Below are positions 4,335 through 33,885 of a DNA stretch of 36,429 nt, piece by piece. Where the stretch lies: IMG/VR virus record IMGVR_UViG_3300037847_002356, positions 1 through 36,429 of that record. The stretch is one strand, 5' to 3'. Position numbers and translations under genes: made by a program. The notes below the pieces were generated by a model. That model was not told the DNA's origin, searched no databases, and was given only the letters and a program-made list of their open reading frames with translations. The DNA is from a virus. The stretch's first letter is position 1; each line of letters opens with the position of its first letter.

Positions 4335-4373
4335 TGGTAAAGACCTTAAATTTTTACCACAAAATTTTTTTTT
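4335..4373 (+). terminator. Rho-independent terminator upstream of capsid gene
   Basis: TGGTAAA (4335-4341) pairs with TTTACCA (4353-4359), followed by a run of nine T (4365-4373). The stem is AT-rich, so it may work together with the GC-rich structure just upstream. Confidence 0.7.
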
Positions 4374-4404
4374 CAAACGTTTGAAGCTTGTCTAAATAAT
4401 CTTT
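4374..4404 (+). promoter_or_regulatory. Possible capsid promoter with palindrome
   Basis: The perfect palindrome CAAACGTTTG (4374-4383) directly follows a terminator T-run and lies 30 bases before the capsid ATG. Its core CAAACGTTT recurs at 30679-30687, again after a terminator and before a gene block. This placement suits a late phage promoter or operator. The call is inference from position and repetition; the phage polymerase promoter is not known to me. Confidence 0.35.
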
Positions 4405-4413
4405 ATTTTTTAA

Positions 4414-5580
4414 ATGCAATCTTCTGATATGCCCGCGCAACTTTCGCGCCCGGGTCAACTAAACGGTACGGGTGATGCCCGTGCCCTGTATCTTAAACTC
4501 TTCTCTGGAGAGATGTTCAAAGGCTTCCAGAATAATGCGATTGCTCGCGATCTGGTTATGCGCCGTACTCTTAAGAACGGCCGCAGTCTTCAGTTCATCT
4601 ACACAGGTCGTACCACGGCGGAATATCACACACCGGGTAATAGCATCCTTGGTGATTCCGATGGTCGTCCTCCCGTGGCGGAGAAGACCATTACGGTTGA
4701 TGATCTTCTGATCTCCAGTGCATTTTTGTATGATCTCGATGAAGTTCTGTCGCATTATGATATGCGTTCGGAAATTTCTCGCAAGATCGGTTATGCACTT
4801 GCCGAAAAATACGATCGCCTGATCTTCCGTGCTATTGCTAAAGGTGCACGTCAAGCATCTGCCGTCCAATCCGTTGGTAATCCTGCTGTGAGCATGGAAG
4901 AACCCGGTGGTACTCAAATCCAAGTTGGTACCGGTACTGGTACTACTGCTGATGCTTACAATGCTCAGCACCTTGTGTCTGCATTCTTCGATGCAGCTGC
5001 TGCCCTTGACGAAAAAGGAGTCAGCCAAGACGGACGTGTGGGGGTCCTCAACCCACGTCAGTACTACTCCCTGATCCAAGAAGTTGGCAACAACGGACTG
5101 ATCAATCGTGACGAGCAAGGCGCAGGTCTGCAGTCCGGTAAGGGTGTTGTTGAGATCGCTGGTATCAAGATCTACAAGTCCATGAACATTCCGTTCTTGG
5201 GTCAGTACGGCACTGCTTACGGTGGTGACACTGGTGTTACTTCTCCTGGCAACACTGGCGATTTCGTCAGCCCTGACATCGAAGCTGCCCGTAACGAAGA
5301 CACTGGTATTAACAACCACTACGGTAACTCTGACCACTTCGATACCTCCTGCGGTCTGATCTTCCAGCGCGAAGCAGCTGGTTGTGTGGAAGCTATTGCC
5401 CCTCAGGTGCAAGTCACCAGCGGCGATATCCGCACCATCTACCAGGGTGATGTGATCCTGGGTCGTCTCGCCATGGGCGCAGACTTCCTGAACCCTGCTT
5501 GTTGTGTTGAACTGCACGCTACCAACACCGCTGGTTCGGCGTTCGGTACTACCTATCCTGCCAACACTGCTGGCACCTGA
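4414..5580 (+). CDS. Major capsid protein
   Basis: T7 gp10-type capsid protein with the HK97 fold, the icosahedral shell subunit. The 388-residue protein has the family features: an N-terminal GDARALYLKLFSGEM segment, FQNNAIARDLVMRRTLKNGRS, the central DEVLSHYDMRSEISRKIGYALAEKYDR helix region (in parts: DEVLSHYDMRSEISRK, IGYALAEKYDR), and VGVLNPRQYYSLIQ. There is a Gly/Thr-rich insertion at about residues 165-185 and a GDTGVTSPGNTGD loop near residue 270. The codon use is GC-richer and more regular than that of neighbours, as expected of a highly expressed gene. It has a candidate promoter upstream and a terminator directly after it, as T7 gene 10 does. Confidence 0.97.
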   Translation: MQSSDMPAQLSRPGQLNGTGDARALYLKLFSGEMFKGFQNNAIARDLVMRRTLKNGRSLQFIYTGRTTAEYHTPGNSILGDSDGRPPVAEKTITVDDLLISSAFLYDLDEVLSHYDMRSEISRKIGYALAEKYDRLIFRAIAKGARQASAVQSVGNPAVSMEEPGGTQIQVGTGTGTTADAYNAQHLVSAFFDAAAALDEKGVSQDGRVGVLNPRQYYSLIQEVGNNGLINRDEQGAGLQSGKGVVEIAGIKIYKSMNIPFLGQYGTAYGGDTGVTSPGNTGDFVSPDIEAARNEDTGINNHYGNSDHFDTSCGLIFQREAAGCVEAIAPQVQVTSGDIRTIYQGDVILGRLAMGADFLNPACCVELHATNTAGSAFGTTYPANTAGT

Positions 5581-25015: not shown

Positions 25016-25569
25016 TGTGTACATGCCACCCAATCTTCGTTACAGGACCACAGAGGAGCGGTACAACAATTGCAGCTCGTATCTTAGCTAACGATCTCAA
25101 TCGTACCTATATAGACGAGTCTGAATACCACGCAGAGACGCTACCGTCTGATGCTGTTGTACAAGCTCCTTTCCTGTACAAGTTTGTACCTGAACTGTCC
25201 TTCAAACACCCAGGTGCACACTTCATCTTCATGCAGCGAGACAAGCTGCAGATAGTTAAAAGTATGGAACGCATCGAGTGGTACAAAGACTACATCGACG
25301 ATCCACACTTCTATTCCACCTACGTAGACACCGTATACAACACCATAGATGCATTTAAGTTGACGCTTACAGAAGATCGGTGGACAGATTTGGCATACGA
25401 CTCACTACGCACACACCCTTTATTTATAAATGACAGAAAGACGTTCACGGCGCGGCAGTGGGAAAAAGACAAACCCATCGGTCCAACAACCTGGAGAAGC
25501 GACGAATGCGCTAAGTCTTATTCAATCAGACTTCAAGATATTCCTCCAGGCTCTGTGGCAACAACTTGA
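25015..25569 (+). CDS. Sulfotransferase-like P-loop protein
   Basis: A 184-residue protein. The N-terminus reads IFVTGPQRSGTTIAARILAN (residues 7-26), the 5'-phosphosulfate-binding loop of PAPS-dependent sulfotransferases (PRSGTT type). AHFIFMQRDKLQIVKSM (about 64-80) corresponds to the family's 3'-phosphate-binding strand-helix (VxRDPxxxxxS). If active it would move sulfate from PAPS to a glycan or other acceptor. It is shorter than most sulfotransferases (usually 250 or more), and a P-loop kinase remains possible. The last 46 residues are overprinted by the large terminase start. It lies in the packaging operon, an odd place for a metabolic enzyme. Confidence 0.7.
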   Translation: MCTCHPIFVTGPQRSGTTIAARILANDLNRTYIDESEYHAETLPSDAVVQAPFLYKFVPELSFKHPGAHFIFMQRDKLQIVKSMERIEWYKDYIDDPHFYSTYVDTVYNTIDAFKLTLTEDRWTDLAYDSLRTHPLFINDRKTFTARQWEKDKPIGPTTWRSDECAKSYSIRLQDIPPGSVATT

Positions 25570-27241
25570 TTTGCCCTCCCCTACACGTGCTCAATATGCA
25601 ATTGCTGATTACCTCCAACACGGTCCGAAGCGTTTGCAGATCCAAGCATTTCGGGGAGTTGGTAAGAGTTGGATTACAGGTGCTTTTGTTCTTTGGGTTT
25701 TATTTAATAACCCCGAAAAGAAAATTATGATTATCTCTGCGTCTAAAGAACGTGCAGATAACATGTCAATCTTCCTACAAAAACTAATCATTGAAACACC
25801 ATGGCTTTCTCATTTACGTCCGAAGTCCGACGATGCAAGGTGGTCCAGGATAAGCTTCGATGTGAATTGCTCACCTCACCAAGCACCCAGCGTAAAAAGC
25901 GTGGGCATCACTGGACAGCTAACCGGAAGCCGCGCCGATTTAATGATTCTAGACGACATTGAAGTTCCTGGCAACTCAATGACAGAAATGATGAGGGAGA
26001 AACTCCTTCAACTGTGTACAGAAGCTGAATCTATCCTAACACCTAAAGATGACAGCCGCATTATGTACCTTGGTACTCCTCAAACAACTTTCACTATCTA
26101 TCGTAAGCTTGCCGAGCGCAATTACAGGCCCTTCGTCTGGCCTGCAAGAGTACCACGAAAGCTTAGTAATTACGAAGGACTCATTGCTCCCCAGTTGCAA
26201 GAAGATATCGACAATGGAGCAGAACCTTGGCAAGTAACAGACCCTAACCGCTTTTCTGATGACGATCTTATAGAACGTGAAGCTGCTATGGGTCGTAGCA
26301 ACTTTATGTTGCAGTTCATGTTAGACACCTCCCTTAGTGATGCTGAAAAATTCCCACTCAAAATGGCTGACCTCGTGGTTACTTCTGTTAACCCTGAAAC
26401 TTGCCCTGATTCCGTCGTCTGGTGCTCAGACCCCAAAAACGTCATCAAAGAACTACCGACAGTGGGTCTTCCTGGAGATTATTTCTACAGTCCAATGCAG
26501 CTCAAAGGAGAATGGCTCCCTTACTCCGAAAGAATCTGCTCGGTTGATCCGTCGGGTCGTGGAACAGATGAAACGACAGCAGCTTATATCTCCCAACGCA
26601 ACGGTTTCTTGTACTTGCACGAAATGCGAGCTTATAGAGACGGATACTCCGACACAACACTTTTGGATATTCTGAGGGGCTGTAAAAAATTTGGTGTAAA
26701 CAAACTTGTAGTAGAAACAAACTTTGGAGACGGAATCGTTGCTGAACTTTTTAGAAAGCACCTCCAACAAACTAAGCAAGGTATTGATATCGAAGAGGTC
26801 CGTGCCAACGTCCGAAAGGAGGATCGGATCATTGATACCCTTGAGCCTATACTTAATCAACACAGGCTTGTTGTAGATAAAGGGGTCATTGATTGGGATT
26901 ATAACTCCAACAAAGACGAAGCGCCTGAAAAACGACTCATGTACATGCTTTTTTACCAAATGAGTCGCATGTGTCGCGAAAAGGGAGCCGTTAAACACGA
27001 CGACCGTTTAGACGCACTTGCACAAGGTGTCAAGTATTTTACAGATGCTTTTGGTATTTCAGCACAGGAAGAGATCAACTCTCGTAAACGTGATGAGTGG
27101 AATCAAATGCTTGCTGAGTTCCTAGATGACCCACATGCAAGTGCTAATCACCTTGTATTGGGTATGGATTTAGAGCAAAGACAAGCTGCAAGCGGAAACC
27201 CCTCTTCTATCGTCCCAACATGGGTAGATCCAAGACAGTAA
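25430..27241 (+). CDS. Terminase large subunit (gp19-like)
   Basis: The packaging motor ATPase and nuclease, 603 residues (T7 gp19 is 586). Seen: Walker A FRGVGKSW (Lys79), Walker B LMILDDIE, the coupling motif YLGTPQTT, and the nuclease acidic residues in SVDPSGRGTDETTAAY, VVETNFGDG and HDDRLDALAQG. Homology to other T7-like terminases seems to begin near residue 28 (LSLIQSDFKIFLQALW). The preceding Arg/Ser/Lys-rich stretch (MTERRSRRGSGKKTN) is encoded within the overlapping sulfotransferase-like gene. No other in-frame ATG or GTG lies before the conserved part, so the 140-base overlap appears real. Confidence 0.96.
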   Translation: MTERRSRRGSGKKTNPSVQQPGEATNALSLIQSDFKIFLQALWQQLDLPSPTRAQYAIADYLQHGPKRLQIQAFRGVGKSWITGAFVLWVLFNNPEKKIMIISASKERADNMSIFLQKLIIETPWLSHLRPKSDDARWSRISFDVNCSPHQAPSVKSVGITGQLTGSRADLMILDDIEVPGNSMTEMMREKLLQLCTEAESILTPKDDSRIMYLGTPQTTFTIYRKLAERNYRPFVWPARVPRKLSNYEGLIAPQLQEDIDNGAEPWQVTDPNRFSDDDLIEREAAMGRSNFMLQFMLDTSLSDAEKFPLKMADLVVTSVNPETCPDSVVWCSDPKNVIKELPTVGLPGDYFYSPMQLKGEWLPYSERICSVDPSGRGTDETTAAYISQRNGFLYLHEMRAYRDGYSDTTLLDILRGCKKFGVNKLVVETNFGDGIVAELFRKHLQQTKQGIDIEEVRANVRKEDRIIDTLEPILNQHRLVVDKGVIDWDYNSNKDEAPEKRLMYMLFYQMSRMCREKGAVKHDDRLDALAQGVKYFTDAFGISAQEEINSRKRDEWNQMLAEFLDDPHASANHLVLGMDLEQRQAASGNPSSIVPTWVDPRQ

Positions 27242-27395
27242 CTGGTGTCTTAACATTAGACACACATATCTAAATGTTAAACGCCACTGTATACAGGGAA
27301 GTGAGAAGGGTGGACTCATTTCCTTGTACTGACAAGGGGGACTCGACAAGTTTGATGACCCCTTGTTCACTACTCAAGCCGTGTTCTTGAGTCCT
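27242..27395 (+). other. Structured non-coding block after terminase
   Basis: No convincing ORF. Several strong helices are possible: TTAACATTAGA with TCTAAATGTTAA (27250-27280, one bulge); CCTTGT/ACAAGG (27322-27337) competing with ACAAGGGG/CCCCTTGT (27332-27366); ACTCAAG/CTTGAGT (27372-27392); and a long-range GGACTC/GAGTCC (27312-27317 with 27389-27394). None is followed by a T-run. It may be a structured RNA or the terminase recognition/terminal repeat region between late and early genes. The 23-bp repeat lies at 27278-27300. Confidence 0.5.
27278..27300 (+). repeat. 23-bp perfect repeat, intergenic copy
   Basis: Identical in all 23 bases and in the same orientation to 32358-32380 inside the RNA polymerase gene. 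It begins TAAACGCCAC and ends ATACAGGGAA, and contains the perfect palindrome CTGTATACAG (27287-27296). Flanking bases differ on both sides, so the match is sharply bounded. Confidence 0.9.
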
Positions 27396-27466
27396 TACTA
27401 ACCGACAAACAATTAAATTACATGTAATAAATAACATTATTTAAATTACGTGTTTTACTTATTATC

Positions 27467-27495
27467 TTTTCAGGACTTGTTCCTGAACTTATAAT
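27467..27495 (+). promoter_or_regulatory. sigma70-type thyX promoter with palindromic operator
   Basis: The -10 box TATAAT (27490-27495) is a perfect consensus match; 17 bases upstream lies TTTTCA (27467-27472, 4 of 6 to TTGACA). The spacer holds a perfect inverted repeat TTCAGGA-CTTGT-TCCTGAA (27469-27487). It sits 20 bases before the thyX start in a very AT-rich stretch. It suggests transcription by the host polymerase with a repressor or hairpin acting at the promoter. Confidence 0.6.
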
Positions 27496-27514
27496 ATCTC
27501 ACTTAACTTATTAA

Positions 27515-28141
27515 ATGCACTCCGTACAACTTGTCCATTCCACTTCTAATGGTGATGATCTGATCTCTTTCATGGCACGTGTGTCAAATCCTAAAAATCA
27601 AAACAACACTGAGACCAGTGATAAATTGATTAAGTATTTGATTAAACATAAACATTGGTCACCTTTTGAAATGGTCAATATGTGTGTAGAAATTAAAACT
27701 ACACGCAGTATTAGTACTCAAATCTTGAGACATAGAAGCTTTAGTTTTCAAGAATTTAGTCAACGATATGCTGAAGTAACTGAACGTCCAATTGTTCCTA
27801 ATATTCGACGTCAAGATCTTATTAATCGACAGAATAGTACAGATGATATTGATCCAATTACTGTACAAGAGTTTCAGCTAAAATCTGATCTACTGTTTGA
27901 TCAGTCGTTGTATCTCTATAACGAAATGCTTAGTGCAGGTGTAGCTAAGGAATGTGCACGTGAAGTGTTGCCGTTGAGTTCACCAACTACGATGTATATG
28001 AATGGTACGTTGAGATCGTGGATTCATTACACAGATCTTCGTTGTGGTAATGGTACACAATATGAGCACAGAATTATTGCTGATCAATGTCGTGAATTGA
28101 TTCGAGAGTGTTTTCCTAAAGTGTACGCTGCTTTGTCCTGA
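27515..28141 (+). CDS. thyX: Flavin-dependent thymidylate synthase ThyX
   Basis: Makes dTMP from dUMP using FAD, NADPH and methylene-tetrahydrofolate, supplying thymidine for phage replication. The 208-residue protein has the ThyX motif RHRSFSFQEFS (RHR-X7-S; Arg72-His73-Arg74, Ser82) followed by QRY, an N-terminal HKHWSPFEMVNMCVEIKTTR (the substrate-site His-x-SPFEH/M region), and the C-terminal catalytic region ECAREVLPLSS with LRSWIHYTDLRC. It is complete. It has its own host-type promoter immediately upstream and is followed by tiny overlapping genes. Confidence 0.97.
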   Translation: MHSVQLVHSTSNGDDLISFMARVSNPKNQNNTETSDKLIKYLIKHKHWSPFEMVNMCVEIKTTRSISTQILRHRSFSFQEFSQRYAEVTERPIVPNIRRQDLINRQNSTDDIDPITVQEFQLKSDLLFDQSLYLYNEMLSAGVAKECAREVLPLSSPTTMYMNGTLRSWIHYTDLRCGNGTQYEHRIIADQCRELIRECFPKVYAALS

Positions 28142-28233
28142 TGGTTGTTTGGAGTGTCCTTTGGATGATTGCTATTCTGTTAGTAGCAGTCTCTTACATT
28201 ATTTATCTGGTTTTAAACTTTGATTCTACTTAA
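28141..28233 (+). CDS. Single-span membrane mini-protein (30 aa)
   Basis: A 30-residue protein that is almost entirely one membrane helix: MVVWSVLWMIAILLVAVSYI followed by IYLVLNFDST. Its start overlaps the thyX stop by one base (TGATG), which suggests coupled translation. Proteins this short are easily chance ORFs, but the uninterrupted hydrophobic stretch and tight coupling support it. Possible roles, all inferred, are membrane-targeted host inhibition or holin-like activity. Confidence 0.55.
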   Translation: MVVWSVLWMIAILLVAVSYIIYLVLNFDST

Positions 28234-28234
28234 T

Positions 28235-28348
28235 ATGCTTATTGTCGGGCTGGTAGAAATCGGTCCTGATGTATATCAACTGCAGTTGCTGTCTGAAACC
28301 GGTGAGATTGTAGAGTACATCCTCTCAAAAAATGACAAAAATCTCTGA
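28235..28348 (+). CDS. Small hypothetical protein (37 aa)
   Basis: A 37-residue acidic protein, MLIVGLVEIGPDVYQLQLLS followed by ETGEIVEYILSKNDKNL, with a beta-hairpin-like alternation. It begins one base after the preceding stop. No family is recognised. The sequence after its stop turns into the structured, GC-richer non-coding block, so it ends the thyX mini-operon. Confidence 0.55.
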   Translation: MLIVGLVEIGPDVYQLQLLSETGEIVEYILSKNDKNL

Positions 28349-28360
28349 AGTCTATTAACG

Positions 28361-28481
28361 ACTGGGATCCGCGCAGTTTCCCCCATAGGGGGGGTGGCCT
28401 TGGACGTGTGTCTGCGGCTGGACGGACGGCTGGACGCGGTAACATCCCAGTTATTGCAAGGGTTTTGGGCCTTGCGTAACT
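28361..28481 (+). other. Structured RNA/DNA element with alternative folds
   Basis: ACTGGGAT-CCGC (28361-28372) is complementary to GCGG (28436-28439) and ATCCCAGT (28444-28451). Inside is CCCCC-ATA-GGGGG (28380-28392). Downstream, AGTTA..GCAAGG pairs with CCTTGC.TAACT (28449-28481) and shares bases 28449-28451 with the first helix, so full forms of the two exclude each other. Confidence 0.5.
28415..28436 (+). repeat. Short direct repeats (CGGCTGGACG x2)
   Basis: CGGCTGGACG occurs at 28415-28424 and 28427-28436, a 12-base period; a third TGGACG lies at 28401-28406. The arrangement is iteron-like and sits in the loop region of the structured element. Confidence 0.6.
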
Positions 28482-28714
28482 GTGTGAATGGCAGGTACGC
28501 AGACAATGGACAGCAGCAATAGGGCAGCTGTGGTGCATGTGTCGTATGTATTTGGTGCGATCTGTCGCGACCGATTAGCTCAGCTAATGTTATTGATAAG
28601 TATTAGTAATGTTAAGCGTTACAACAAAACCAACGACCAAAAGCCAAAGACCTGCCACACTGTGTGCATCGAGCGAAACACCTTCCACTCACCTTCGTTC
28701 GATCACACCAACCC

Positions 28715-29814: not shown

Positions 29815-29838
29815 ACTCAGTGTTCACACTCACAAATC

Positions 29839-31435: not shown

Positions 31436-31586
31436 ATACGAAGCTCTGTGTTTGGAAATTCACACTCATCCGCACAAAGATGAGCTACTACAACTAATGT
31501 CTGACCAAATTGCAGACATGCATTCAACAAAGTACTTAGAAGACATTGCCAACACCAGCCGAGATCGACACGCAGATCAAGCTTGA
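31419..31586 (+). CDS. Small hypothetical protein (55 aa)
   Basis: A 55-residue helical protein, MITTTEYEALCLEIHTHPHK then DELLQLMSDQIADMHSTKYL and EDIANTSRDRHADQA. It overlaps the 3' end of the gene before it by 17 bases and the RNA polymerase start by 41 bases. An earlier in-frame ATG at 31395 is possible. Translation through this gene would bring ribosomes to the TTG start of RNA polymerase, so it may serve partly for coupling. Function unknown. Confidence 0.6.
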   Translation: MITTTEYEALCLEIHTHPHKDELLQLMSDQIADMHSTKYLEDIANTSRDRHADQA

Positions 31587-33885
31587 ACGGGAACAAATCC
31601 GTTTAGGTTTGCAACAGCTTCATGCCAACACTCAAAACCTGGAGGATCGTGACTATGCAAGTTCAAGCGTCTACGGGGTGGCTTCTATTGAGCAGCTTAT
31701 GCCTGCTGTGGCTAAGCGTATTGCAACTACTCGTGACTCACTGAAAAAGAGAAGAACGGGTGCGTACTTCAAGGACGTGTCCCGTTTCATCTTTGACATT
31801 GAGCCAGAAGCGGCAGCAAGTATCGCTTGCAAAGTCACATTTGACAAGGTGTTTAGCACTAAACCACGTGCAAATGCTGCTGTGAGCGTCACTGATGCCA
31901 TCGGTCAGGCTATCGAAAACGAATGTATGATGCGTCACTATGAGCGCAACGTGCCAGGTCTTCTACATTCGATAAAACAGAACTATTGGCACAAATCGAT
32001 AGGCACCCAGCAAAAGGTCACCGTCATACGCACTCTTATGAATCGATGTGACGTTGATCATTGGGAAACCTGGGGTAGATCAATTCGGGTTCGTTTGGGC
32101 GGTTGGTTGTTGGATTGCATTTGTCAGTCCAGCAACTGGTTCATGACTGAACCTCGCAGGGAGGGGCGCAAACTACAAAATTACGTAGTTCCTACTCCAG
32201 AATTTATCGAGATCAAAGATCATGTCATGGCAACGGCTGAGCTGTTCAGCCCCATTGCCTGGCCCATGCTGATCGAACCCAACGATTGGTCTAACGATCG
32301 GCAGGGTGGCTACCTCCTCAACGAGGTGATGAAAGGGTATGACATGGTGCGTCGTGGTAAACGCCACTGTATACAGGGAAAAGATTTCATAGCCTTTCTG
32401 AACAAGATTCAAAAGGTTGCCTATCGTCTAAACCCGTTCGTCATTGACGTTGCTGAAACGTTGATGAAACGGCAAATAAGCGTTGGCAAATTCATCCCTG
32501 TGGTTGAGATGCCTCTACCCCCTAAACCTGTAGACATTGCTGAAAACAAAATTTCTCGACAGGACTACAGACGACGGGCTGCTGAGGTATGCAACATAAA
32601 CGCGCAAGCGTTTCAAAAGTCATGCCGCACACGTATGACAATGAACGCTGTGTCCACCTTTAAACGATACAAACGGTTCTACGTGCCCTGGAGTGCGGAT
32701 TACCGCGGGAGAGTGTACCCAATTCCTTCATTCTTGACACCCCAAGATACAGATTTTGGCAAGTCACTCTTGGTTTATGATGAAAGCGCTCTGATCACAC
32801 CCGAATGCAAGCATTGGCTAGGGTTTGCGTGTGCTACAACCTATGGTCTTGACAAAGCTACAATTGAAGAGCGATTAAATTGGGTTGACGACAACCTTGA
32901 TTTAATTACTCGCGTAGCAACAGATCCAATTGGCAATCTTGCTGAATGGGAAGCTGCTGATGAGCCATGGCAATTTCTTGCTTCAGCAGAAGAATATTTT
33001 GCCACGATCATCACGGGATCAAGGACGCACACCAGATTGCCGGTTGCTACAGATGCCACATGCAGTGGATTGCAAATCTTGGCGGGTTTAGCCCGAGATG
33101 CATCAACTGCAAAACTTGTAAATGTATTGCCTTCTGACAAACCTCAGGATGCTTACAAAGTTGTAGCTGAAACAGCAAAGCCAAATGTCCCTGATGTGAT
33201 CAAACCACACATGGACAGAAAAACTGTCAAACGAGTAGTTATGACAGTACCATACAATGCTAAACCTTTTTCAAACCGATCGTACATACGTGAGGCGTTG
33301 AAAGAAAAGGGAATCGAAGTTGAAAAAGAAGATTTGACCGCAACAGTCGCCGCTGTGCGCGATGCCATGGACACAATTGTGCCAGGCCCTATGCGTGTCA
33401 TGAAATGGATAGAACAGGAAGTAGCTGCTGCCATTGATCGCGGAGCAAACGAACTTGAATGGGTAACACCATCTGGGTTTGTTGTCACTCAGCGTCTTAT
33501 GAAAAAACAGATGAAGCAAATTGAGCTTCAATTACTTGGTAGATGTCGTATAAATCTTGCGGAAGGAGATTCTAGCAAGGTCGATAGAACACACCATAAA
33601 AATGCAACTGCGCCAAATTTAATCCATTCATTAGATGCATCATTGTTGTGCCTATCTGCATTACGTTTCAACGCTCCGATTTCCCTCATACACGACTCGG
33701 TACTATGCCGTGCTTCTGACATGTCTGTTTTATCAGCCATTGTTCGTGAAACATACATGCACCTCTTTGCGGAGCATGACTACTTGACTACATTTGCCCA
33801 ACATATTGGGGCAGAAACTGATCCACCAATTATTGGTGACCTTCAACCGTCACGAGTAATTGATTCCACCTATTTCTTTTGCTAA
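31546..33885 (+). CDS. Phage single-subunit DNA-directed RNA polymerase
   Basis: T7-type RNA polymerase (779 residues; T7 gp1 has 883) that transcribes the later genes from phage promoters. Active-site residues are present: Asp503 in DATCSGLQILAG (T7 Asp537), Lys562 and Tyr570 in KRVVMTVPYNAK (T7 Lys631, Tyr639), APNLIHSLDASLL, and Asp717 in LIHDSVL (T7 Asp812). The start is TTG: a stop codon at 31537 leaves only AAG-ACA-TTG before PTPAEIDTQIKLEREQIRLG, the usual cyanophage N-terminus. A 23-bp stretch at residues 271-279 is repeated exactly in the terminase-thyX gap. The stop overlaps the SSB start by one base. Confidence 0.97.
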   Translation: MPTPAEIDTQIKLEREQIRLGLQQLHANTQNLEDRDYASSSVYGVASIEQLMPAVAKRIATTRDSLKKRRTGAYFKDVSRFIFDIEPEAAASIACKVTFDKVFSTKPRANAAVSVTDAIGQAIENECMMRHYERNVPGLLHSIKQNYWHKSIGTQQKVTVIRTLMNRCDVDHWETWGRSIRVRLGGWLLDCICQSSNWFMTEPRREGRKLQNYVVPTPEFIEIKDHVMATAELFSPIAWPMLIEPNDWSNDRQGGYLLNEVMKGYDMVRRGKRHCIQGKDFIAFLNKIQKVAYRLNPFVIDVAETLMKRQISVGKFIPVVEMPLPPKPVDIAENKISRQDYRRRAAEVCNINAQAFQKSCRTRMTMNAVSTFKRYKRFYVPWSADYRGRVYPIPSFLTPQDTDFGKSLLVYDESALITPECKHWLGFACATTYGLDKATIEERLNWVDDNLDLITRVATDPIGNLAEWEAADEPWQFLASAEEYFATIITGSRTHTRLPVATDATCSGLQILAGLARDASTAKLVNVLPSDKPQDAYKVVAETAKPNVPDVIKPHMDRKTVKRVVMTVPYNAKPFSNRSYIREALKEKGIEVEKEDLTATVAAVRDAMDTIVPGPMRVMKWIEQEVAAAIDRGANELEWVTPSGFVVTQRLMKKQMKQIELQLLGRCRINLAEGDSSKVDRTHHKNATAPNLIHSLDASLLCLSALRFNAPISLIHDSVLCRASDMSVLSAIVRETYMHLFAEHDYLTTFAQHIGAETDPPIIGDLQPSRVIDSTYFFC
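32358..32380 (+). repeat. 23-bp perfect repeat, copy inside RNA polymerase gene
   Basis: Encodes the KRHCIQG region (residues 271-279) of the polymerase and is identical to 27278-27300. It includes the palindrome CTGTATACAG at 32367-32376. Flanking sequence differs on both sides. Confidence 0.9.

Follow-up and report, generated by a model that had tools for sequence, protein, structure and literature searches.

A 23-bp repeat in a cyanopodovirus genome fragment as a probable two-copy promoter of the phage's own RNA polymerase

Promoters of T7-like RNA polymerases in phages

T7 promoters comprise 23 bp (−17 to +6), and to our knowledge none of them lies inside the polymerase gene. The RNA polymerase (RNAP) promoters of Synechococcus phage Syn5 were reportedly the subject of a 2013 JBC paper. 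T7 has 15 promoters; the Syn5 genome contains only two phage-RNAP promoters, ATTGGGCACCCGTAA, one of them inside the RNAP gene, and Syn5 RNAP begins transcription at its own promoter copy in vitro (Zhu et al., PMC3950665, 2013 NAR paper). For comparison, this paper was used together with the genome sequence EF372997, in which the two promoters were localized by us at 4929 (809 nt into the RNAP gene) and 44797 (6 nt past the terminase gene, ahead of thyX). Together they make up an exact repeat of 20 bp; in this genome only the 237-bp terminal repeat is longer.

The cognate promoters of other cyanophage RNAPs were the aim, shared with the present work, of a 2024 screen that predicted AAAATTCTTCAAGTTTACAA for P-SSP7 and CACTTCCACTCAACCAACCG for S-CBP42 (PMC11475235). 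All 16 low-similarity enzyme/promoter pairs of that study, a figure for the whole set and not for P-SSP7 or S-CBP42 singly, were non-functional, and wrong promoters were suspected (PMC11475235). Neither AAAATTCTTCAAGTTTACAA nor CACTTCCACTCAACCAACCG occurred exactly in the phage genomes searched, which included those of P-SSP7 and S-CBP42. The paired repeats that we predict to be the promoters differ from these sequences; they are AACCCCTACGTATACAGGGG in P-SSP7 and CATCTGGCCCATGTAAGCAGGGAGA in S-CBP42, with exactly two occurrences each at the expected places. In the literature found, the promoter of Syn5 was the only cyanophage promoter backed by an assay, the others having been guessed differently or never; among the relatives, Syn5 alone had its polymerase examined there as purified enzyme.

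The repeat and its surroundings

The window is the whole stretch of 36,429 bases that was analysed. The sequence TAAACGCCACTGTATACAGGGAA was found at 27278–27300 and at 32358–32380, both on the + strand and between unlike flanks, as an earlier note on this DNA had described, and is the longest exact repeat of the window (23 bp; next in length are a tandem run of 17 bp and a pair of 16 bp). From the base composition, 1.3e-5 same-strand exact pairs of at least 23 bp are expected in 36,429 bases, which bears out the note's view that a chance origin is very unlikely. No third copy of the 23-mer was found in the window, where the next-best 23-mer matched at 15/23 bases; the 16-base core had no further window site with up to three mismatches, and CTGTATACAG was present in the two repeat copies only. 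An exact search of IMG/VR with the 23-mer gave no match, as is expected because every phage bears its own version of the repeat.

The first copy lies in the 273-bp gap between terminase (ORF end 27241) and thyX (start 27515), beginning 37 nt past the terminase gene; the second lies 812 nt into the RNA polymerase ORF (31546–33885). Judged by the gene order in Syn5, the window, a fragment from a virus record, would span the junction of right-end and early genes; a terminal repeat was not located within it. Two other sequence features of the window were recorded: a 16-bp exact repeat, TGTTCACACTCACAAA, at 29821 and 35120 (∼0.2 such pairs expected by chance) and a perfect 14-bp palindrome, TTCAAACGTTTGAA, at 4372–4385, non-coding and between two ORFs.

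The repeat is very probably a two-copy promoter (P1 in the gene, P2 in the gap) of the phage's own T7-type RNAP, a reading that rests on positional homology to Syn5, pairing in relatives, constraint at the DNA level and covariation between residues and bases. In each copy, ∼15 bp (−15 to −1) would be recognized by the enzyme, and eight further shared bases would be transcribed. The features are as follows.

25430–27241, + strand: terminase large-subunit gene, directly upstream of P2 (Pfam PF22530; present in 26/26 relatives searched).
27278–27292, + strand: P2, putative right-end phage RNAP promoter, −15 to −1 (same sequence as P1; after-terminase position as in Syn5; pairing in 62/64 phages).
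27293–27300, + strand: predicted initially transcribed bases of P2; the putative +1, give or take one or two bases, is the A at 27293 (aligned by codons with the start site of Syn5; the 5' hairpin starts there in many relatives).
27293–27327, + strand: predicted 5'-terminal hairpin of the P2 transcript, with a 13-bp stem and the loop AAGGGTGGA at 27306–27314 (conservation in relatives and compensatory pairs).
27330–27369, + strand: predicted second hairpin, terminator-like in relatives, with a weak T-run in the window (fold; 49/63 phages).
27515–28141, + strand: thyX, the first gene 3' of P2, with its ATG 222 nt past the putative start site (Pfam PF02511, E 1.2e-48).
31546–33885, + strand: gene for a single-subunit T7-like RNA polymerase, the cognate enzyme, which hosts P1 (Pfam PF00940, E 7.8e-68, and PF14700; T7 RNAP in the PDB, E 4.6e-59).
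32358–32372, + strand: P1, putative promoter within the RNAP gene (codons ∼271–276), −15 to −1 (offset 812 versus 809 in Syn5; codon constraint at the DNA level; covariation with recognition residues).
32373–32380, + strand: predicted initially transcribed bases of P1, putative +1 at 32373 (alignment with the Syn5 start site).
33523–33549, + strand: specificity-loop codons 660 to 668, in which E660, R666 and R668 correspond to T7 N748, Q754 and R756 (covariation with −11/−10, −9 and −8, z 10.4 to 14.7).

The RNAPs of the window and of Syn5 are 36% identical (E 4e-139), and when the two genes are aligned by codons, the repeat of the window covers the codons that hold the Syn5 promoter, each repeat starting at −15. 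By sequence, the window thus resembles Syn5 in having a T7-like RNAP and two same-strand copies of a putative promoter, one on homologous RNAP codons and one after terminase and before thyX, with the same repeat boundary. Exactly two copies, on the gene strand, were found within the 36.4-kb window, which is a fragment, so that the missing part of the genome could hold a third. The differences from Syn5 lie in the promoter itself (putative TAAACGCCACTGTAT in the window versus ATTGGGCACCCGTAA), in the start region and in the recognition residues of the window RNAP, which differ to match the promoter sequence. With T7 the locus shares the enzyme family and the reading of upstream bases by aligned contact residues, and many cyanophage P2 copies end in TATA-GGGG (compare TATAGGG in T7). 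The many intergenic copies of the canonical T7, T3 and SP6 systems were not found in the window; in contrast to T7, it has two copies, one of them coding.

Pairing, constraint and covariation in relatives

The comparison covered 26 cyanopodovirus genomes, the window counted in; with IMG/VR contigs added, both sites were readable in 64 phages. Each of the 26 genomes had its own repeat at an RNAP offset of ∼805–865 and just after the terminase gene. When every 20-mer of the RNAP gene was compared with the gap, the best match fell at the promoter position in 25/26 genomes, with one tie. In 62 of the 64 phages P1 and P2 had at least 12 of the 15 bases in common (control segments ∼9); mismatches were found mainly at −15 to −11 and were absent at −9, −5 and −4. 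Since the repeat sequences differ widely between phages yet match within each, the two copies co-vary, and the test named in the earlier note, whether the gap copy follows each phage's own polymerase sequence, came out very strongly positive. In 7B11-B, S-B28 and DSL-LC07 the exact repeat is lacking and inexact pairs are present; no convincing P2 (9/15) was found in the phage L318.

Two outgroups, Vibrio phage 526E57-1 and Rhizobium phage Pasto, showed no such repeat inside the RNAP gene; as far as these two can indicate, the copy within the gene may be peculiar to the cyanophage clade. The Vibrio phage carries repeats of the ATTAATGCCAGTCCTTAGA type at 5293, 16547, 25939, 30133 and 40641, apparently at gene borders; from their sequence they look like promoters of its own RNAP, and none lies inside its RNAP gene. 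In the deposited sequences of S-TIP37, NATL1A-7, P-SSP2, P-GSP1 and NATL2A-133, the translation of the RNAP region contains internal stops, which perhaps reflect sequencing errors, frameshifts or assumed gene starts.

Codon constraint at P1 was evaluated in 68 non-redundant polymerases, with the expectation taken from each gene's own codon use. Ile276 is encoded by ATA in 61/61 polymerases, and the third base of codon 276 is A in 64/68 (13.6 expected). The third base of codon 275 is T in 65/68, although the residue varies between C, R, L, S, T and V, and of 66 Gln277 codons 63 are CAG. On these codon counts, the in-gene bases are conserved beyond the need of the protein, a constraint that a DNA site demands. 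The perfect palindrome within the repeat, to which the earlier note had drawn attention, is incidental: as a functional core it was rejected for want of conservation, being absent from Syn5, P-SSP7 and many others.

Covariation between polymerase residues and promoter bases was calculated for 205 distinct polymerases (effective number 111), each recognition position covarying with one or two residues. The z values were 14.7 for −8/668, 11.0 for −9/666, 12.0 for −10/660 and 10.4 for −11/660, and, outside this group of residues, 13.4 for −5/210, 12.4 for −4/178, 10.0 for −15/68 and 6.0 for −13/70. As controls, 88 sites of the same genes were taken, whose best z values had a 99% quantile of 6.8. 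With z above 9, seven promoter positions stand out, compared with a mean of 0.03 for each control site, and the three top matches among the controls point to the promoter codons themselves. Relatedness among the sequences, which enters these z values, is lessened and not removed by the weighting and the in-gene control sites.

In the alignment to T7 RNAP, residues 660, 666 and 668 lie in the specificity loop (T7 N748, Q754 and R756), and residue 178 corresponds to K206. Residues 67–71 correspond to K93–G97 in the AT-rich recognition loop of T7 (93–97), and residues 205 and 210 to N233 and G238 at its intercalating hairpin (233–238). In T7 RNAP, the exchange N748D confers T3 promoter specificity, and R756A is inactive (PMC11477551). 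A Q or N as residue 668 is matched by T at −8, a K by A, an R by C and an E by G; an E or D as residue 660 is matched by C at −10/−11, a K or R by G and an N or Q by A. Such pairing is ordinary amino-acid/base chemistry. The code persists when the non-coding P2 copies alone are used, and the assayed promoter of Syn5 fits it. The RNAP and promoter of the window fit at −8, −9, −11, −4 and −15; it departs from the commonest code in combining E660 with a −10 G, where C is usual, and L210 with a −5 T, a combination hardly found in any other phage.

Leader RNA, alternative readings and proposed use

The predicted P2 transcript would form a hairpin from +1, with ACAGGGAAGTGAG, the loop AAGGGTGGA and CTCATTTCCTTGT at 27293–27327. 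The loop is near-invariant, with AGTGGTGC in the Syn5 group, and the loop element AAGGGUGGA is conserved at the 5' end of the predicted gap-copy RNA (GGGTGGA in 53/63 phages, GTGGTGC in 9/63). A perfect or near-perfect stem of at least 7 bp starting at +1 to +3 was found in 39/63 phages (21% in shuffles), and several more fold with an internal loop; the stem varies in a compensatory manner, with one pair appearing as G–C, A–U, G–U or C–G and being paired in 41/41 sequences. A second GC-rich hairpin followed by a T-run stands at a like place in 49/63 phages, compared with 23/315 (7%) shuffled controls. A stricter local scan gave no terminator in the window gap, where the T-run of the second hairpin is weak, and a search of Rfam 15 with window 27200–28500 gave no match up to E 1. 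From its predicted fold, the tandem hairpin module (27293–27369) is a candidate for a short phage RNA or a protective leader; P2 may give a short RNA, a cargo-gene leader or the two together. The first gene past P2 varies: it is thyX in many phages, a transaldolase-like ORF (judged by its N-terminus) in NATL1A-7 and others elsewhere. A sigma-70-like promoter (TTTTCA, 17 nt, TATAAT) is seen at window 27467–27495, just 5' of thyX; since shuffles yield 0.9 per region, it gives no more than a hint that the host might transcribe thyX and the early genes.

The earlier note had thought of both copies serving as a site, or of an operator to which one of the phage's proteins binds. These two options came near to the promoter reading, the protein very probably being the phage RNAP and the site its promoter. 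That the copies bind another phage protein, or are chiefly replication or packaging signals and not promoters, is very improbable. P2 does lie near the right genetic end and is followed by a conserved hairpin, and a promoter may be able to prime replication as well; T7 has a right origin promoter at its right genetic end. The covariation, however, involves the promoter-contact residues of the polymerase itself, and initiation by Syn5 RNAP at its copy in vitro (PMC3950665) would leave an origin role as an addition at most.

The two remaining proposals of the note fared worse. If the minus strand of the gap were transcribed, an antisense or guide RNA from the gap could pair over 23 bp with the mRNA of the polymerase, but agreement between the copies is closest from −10 to −3, with frequent differences upstream and in the transcribed part (often past +1, e.g. 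ACAGGG at P1 versus AGGGGG at P2), which is the profile of a site read by a protein and makes such an RNA extremely unlikely. It is hardly credible, either, that the repeat is a recombination or homing-endonuclease target or a relic of gene conversion, in which the gap copy would stem from the gene and recombination would maintain its identity. The exact identity of the copies in the window and the HNH genes known in such genomes, for example in Syn5, would suit this idea; against it, identity ends abruptly at about −15, the silent sites in the gene are under constraint at the DNA level, and the copies of many phages show differences, mostly at weakly read positions, that conversion would erase. 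Both copies are in place and in the same order in all relatives (26/26 genomes), with no sign of rearrangement.

With the repeat taken as a two-copy promoter of the phage RNAP, host RNA polymerase would first make the phage polymerase mRNA, and the phage enzyme would then start at P1 and transcribe the replication and late genes up to terminase. Activity at P1 could not amplify polymerase synthesis, because transcripts from P1 would be without the first third of the polymerase gene. Transcription from P2 would cover the cargo gene at the right end as well as the terminal region and, on concatemers, could run on into the early genes; the P2 transcript would open with the conserved hairpin, and late transcripts may end at the second one.

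Tentatively, and with the balance slightly on the side of doubt, we propose that cyanopodovirus RNAP genes generally carry their own promoter, so that enzyme and site are inherited as a unit and co-diverge by a residue-to-base code, with hundreds of pairs readable from metagenomes, and that P2 in addition makes a structured RNA of ∼70 nt (a 5' hairpin with an invariant loop, and a terminator), an undescribed phage RNA. The clade-wide promoter pair and the recognition code appear to be unreported in the literature found, chiefly open-access papers, and priority is uncertain. Because the promoter sits in the polymerase gene, the cognate promoters of hundreds of marine polymerases would be readable directly, and the divergence of promoters and polymerases would expose the code by which amino acids of single-subunit RNA polymerases recognize bases. 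Through such a code, RNA synthesis would gain many orthogonal polymerase/promoter pairs, the transcription map of abundant ocean viruses would be fixed, and the co-evolution of an enzyme with its binding site could be followed where both are encoded by one gene. The hairpin module past P2 would be a new target for phage RNA biology.
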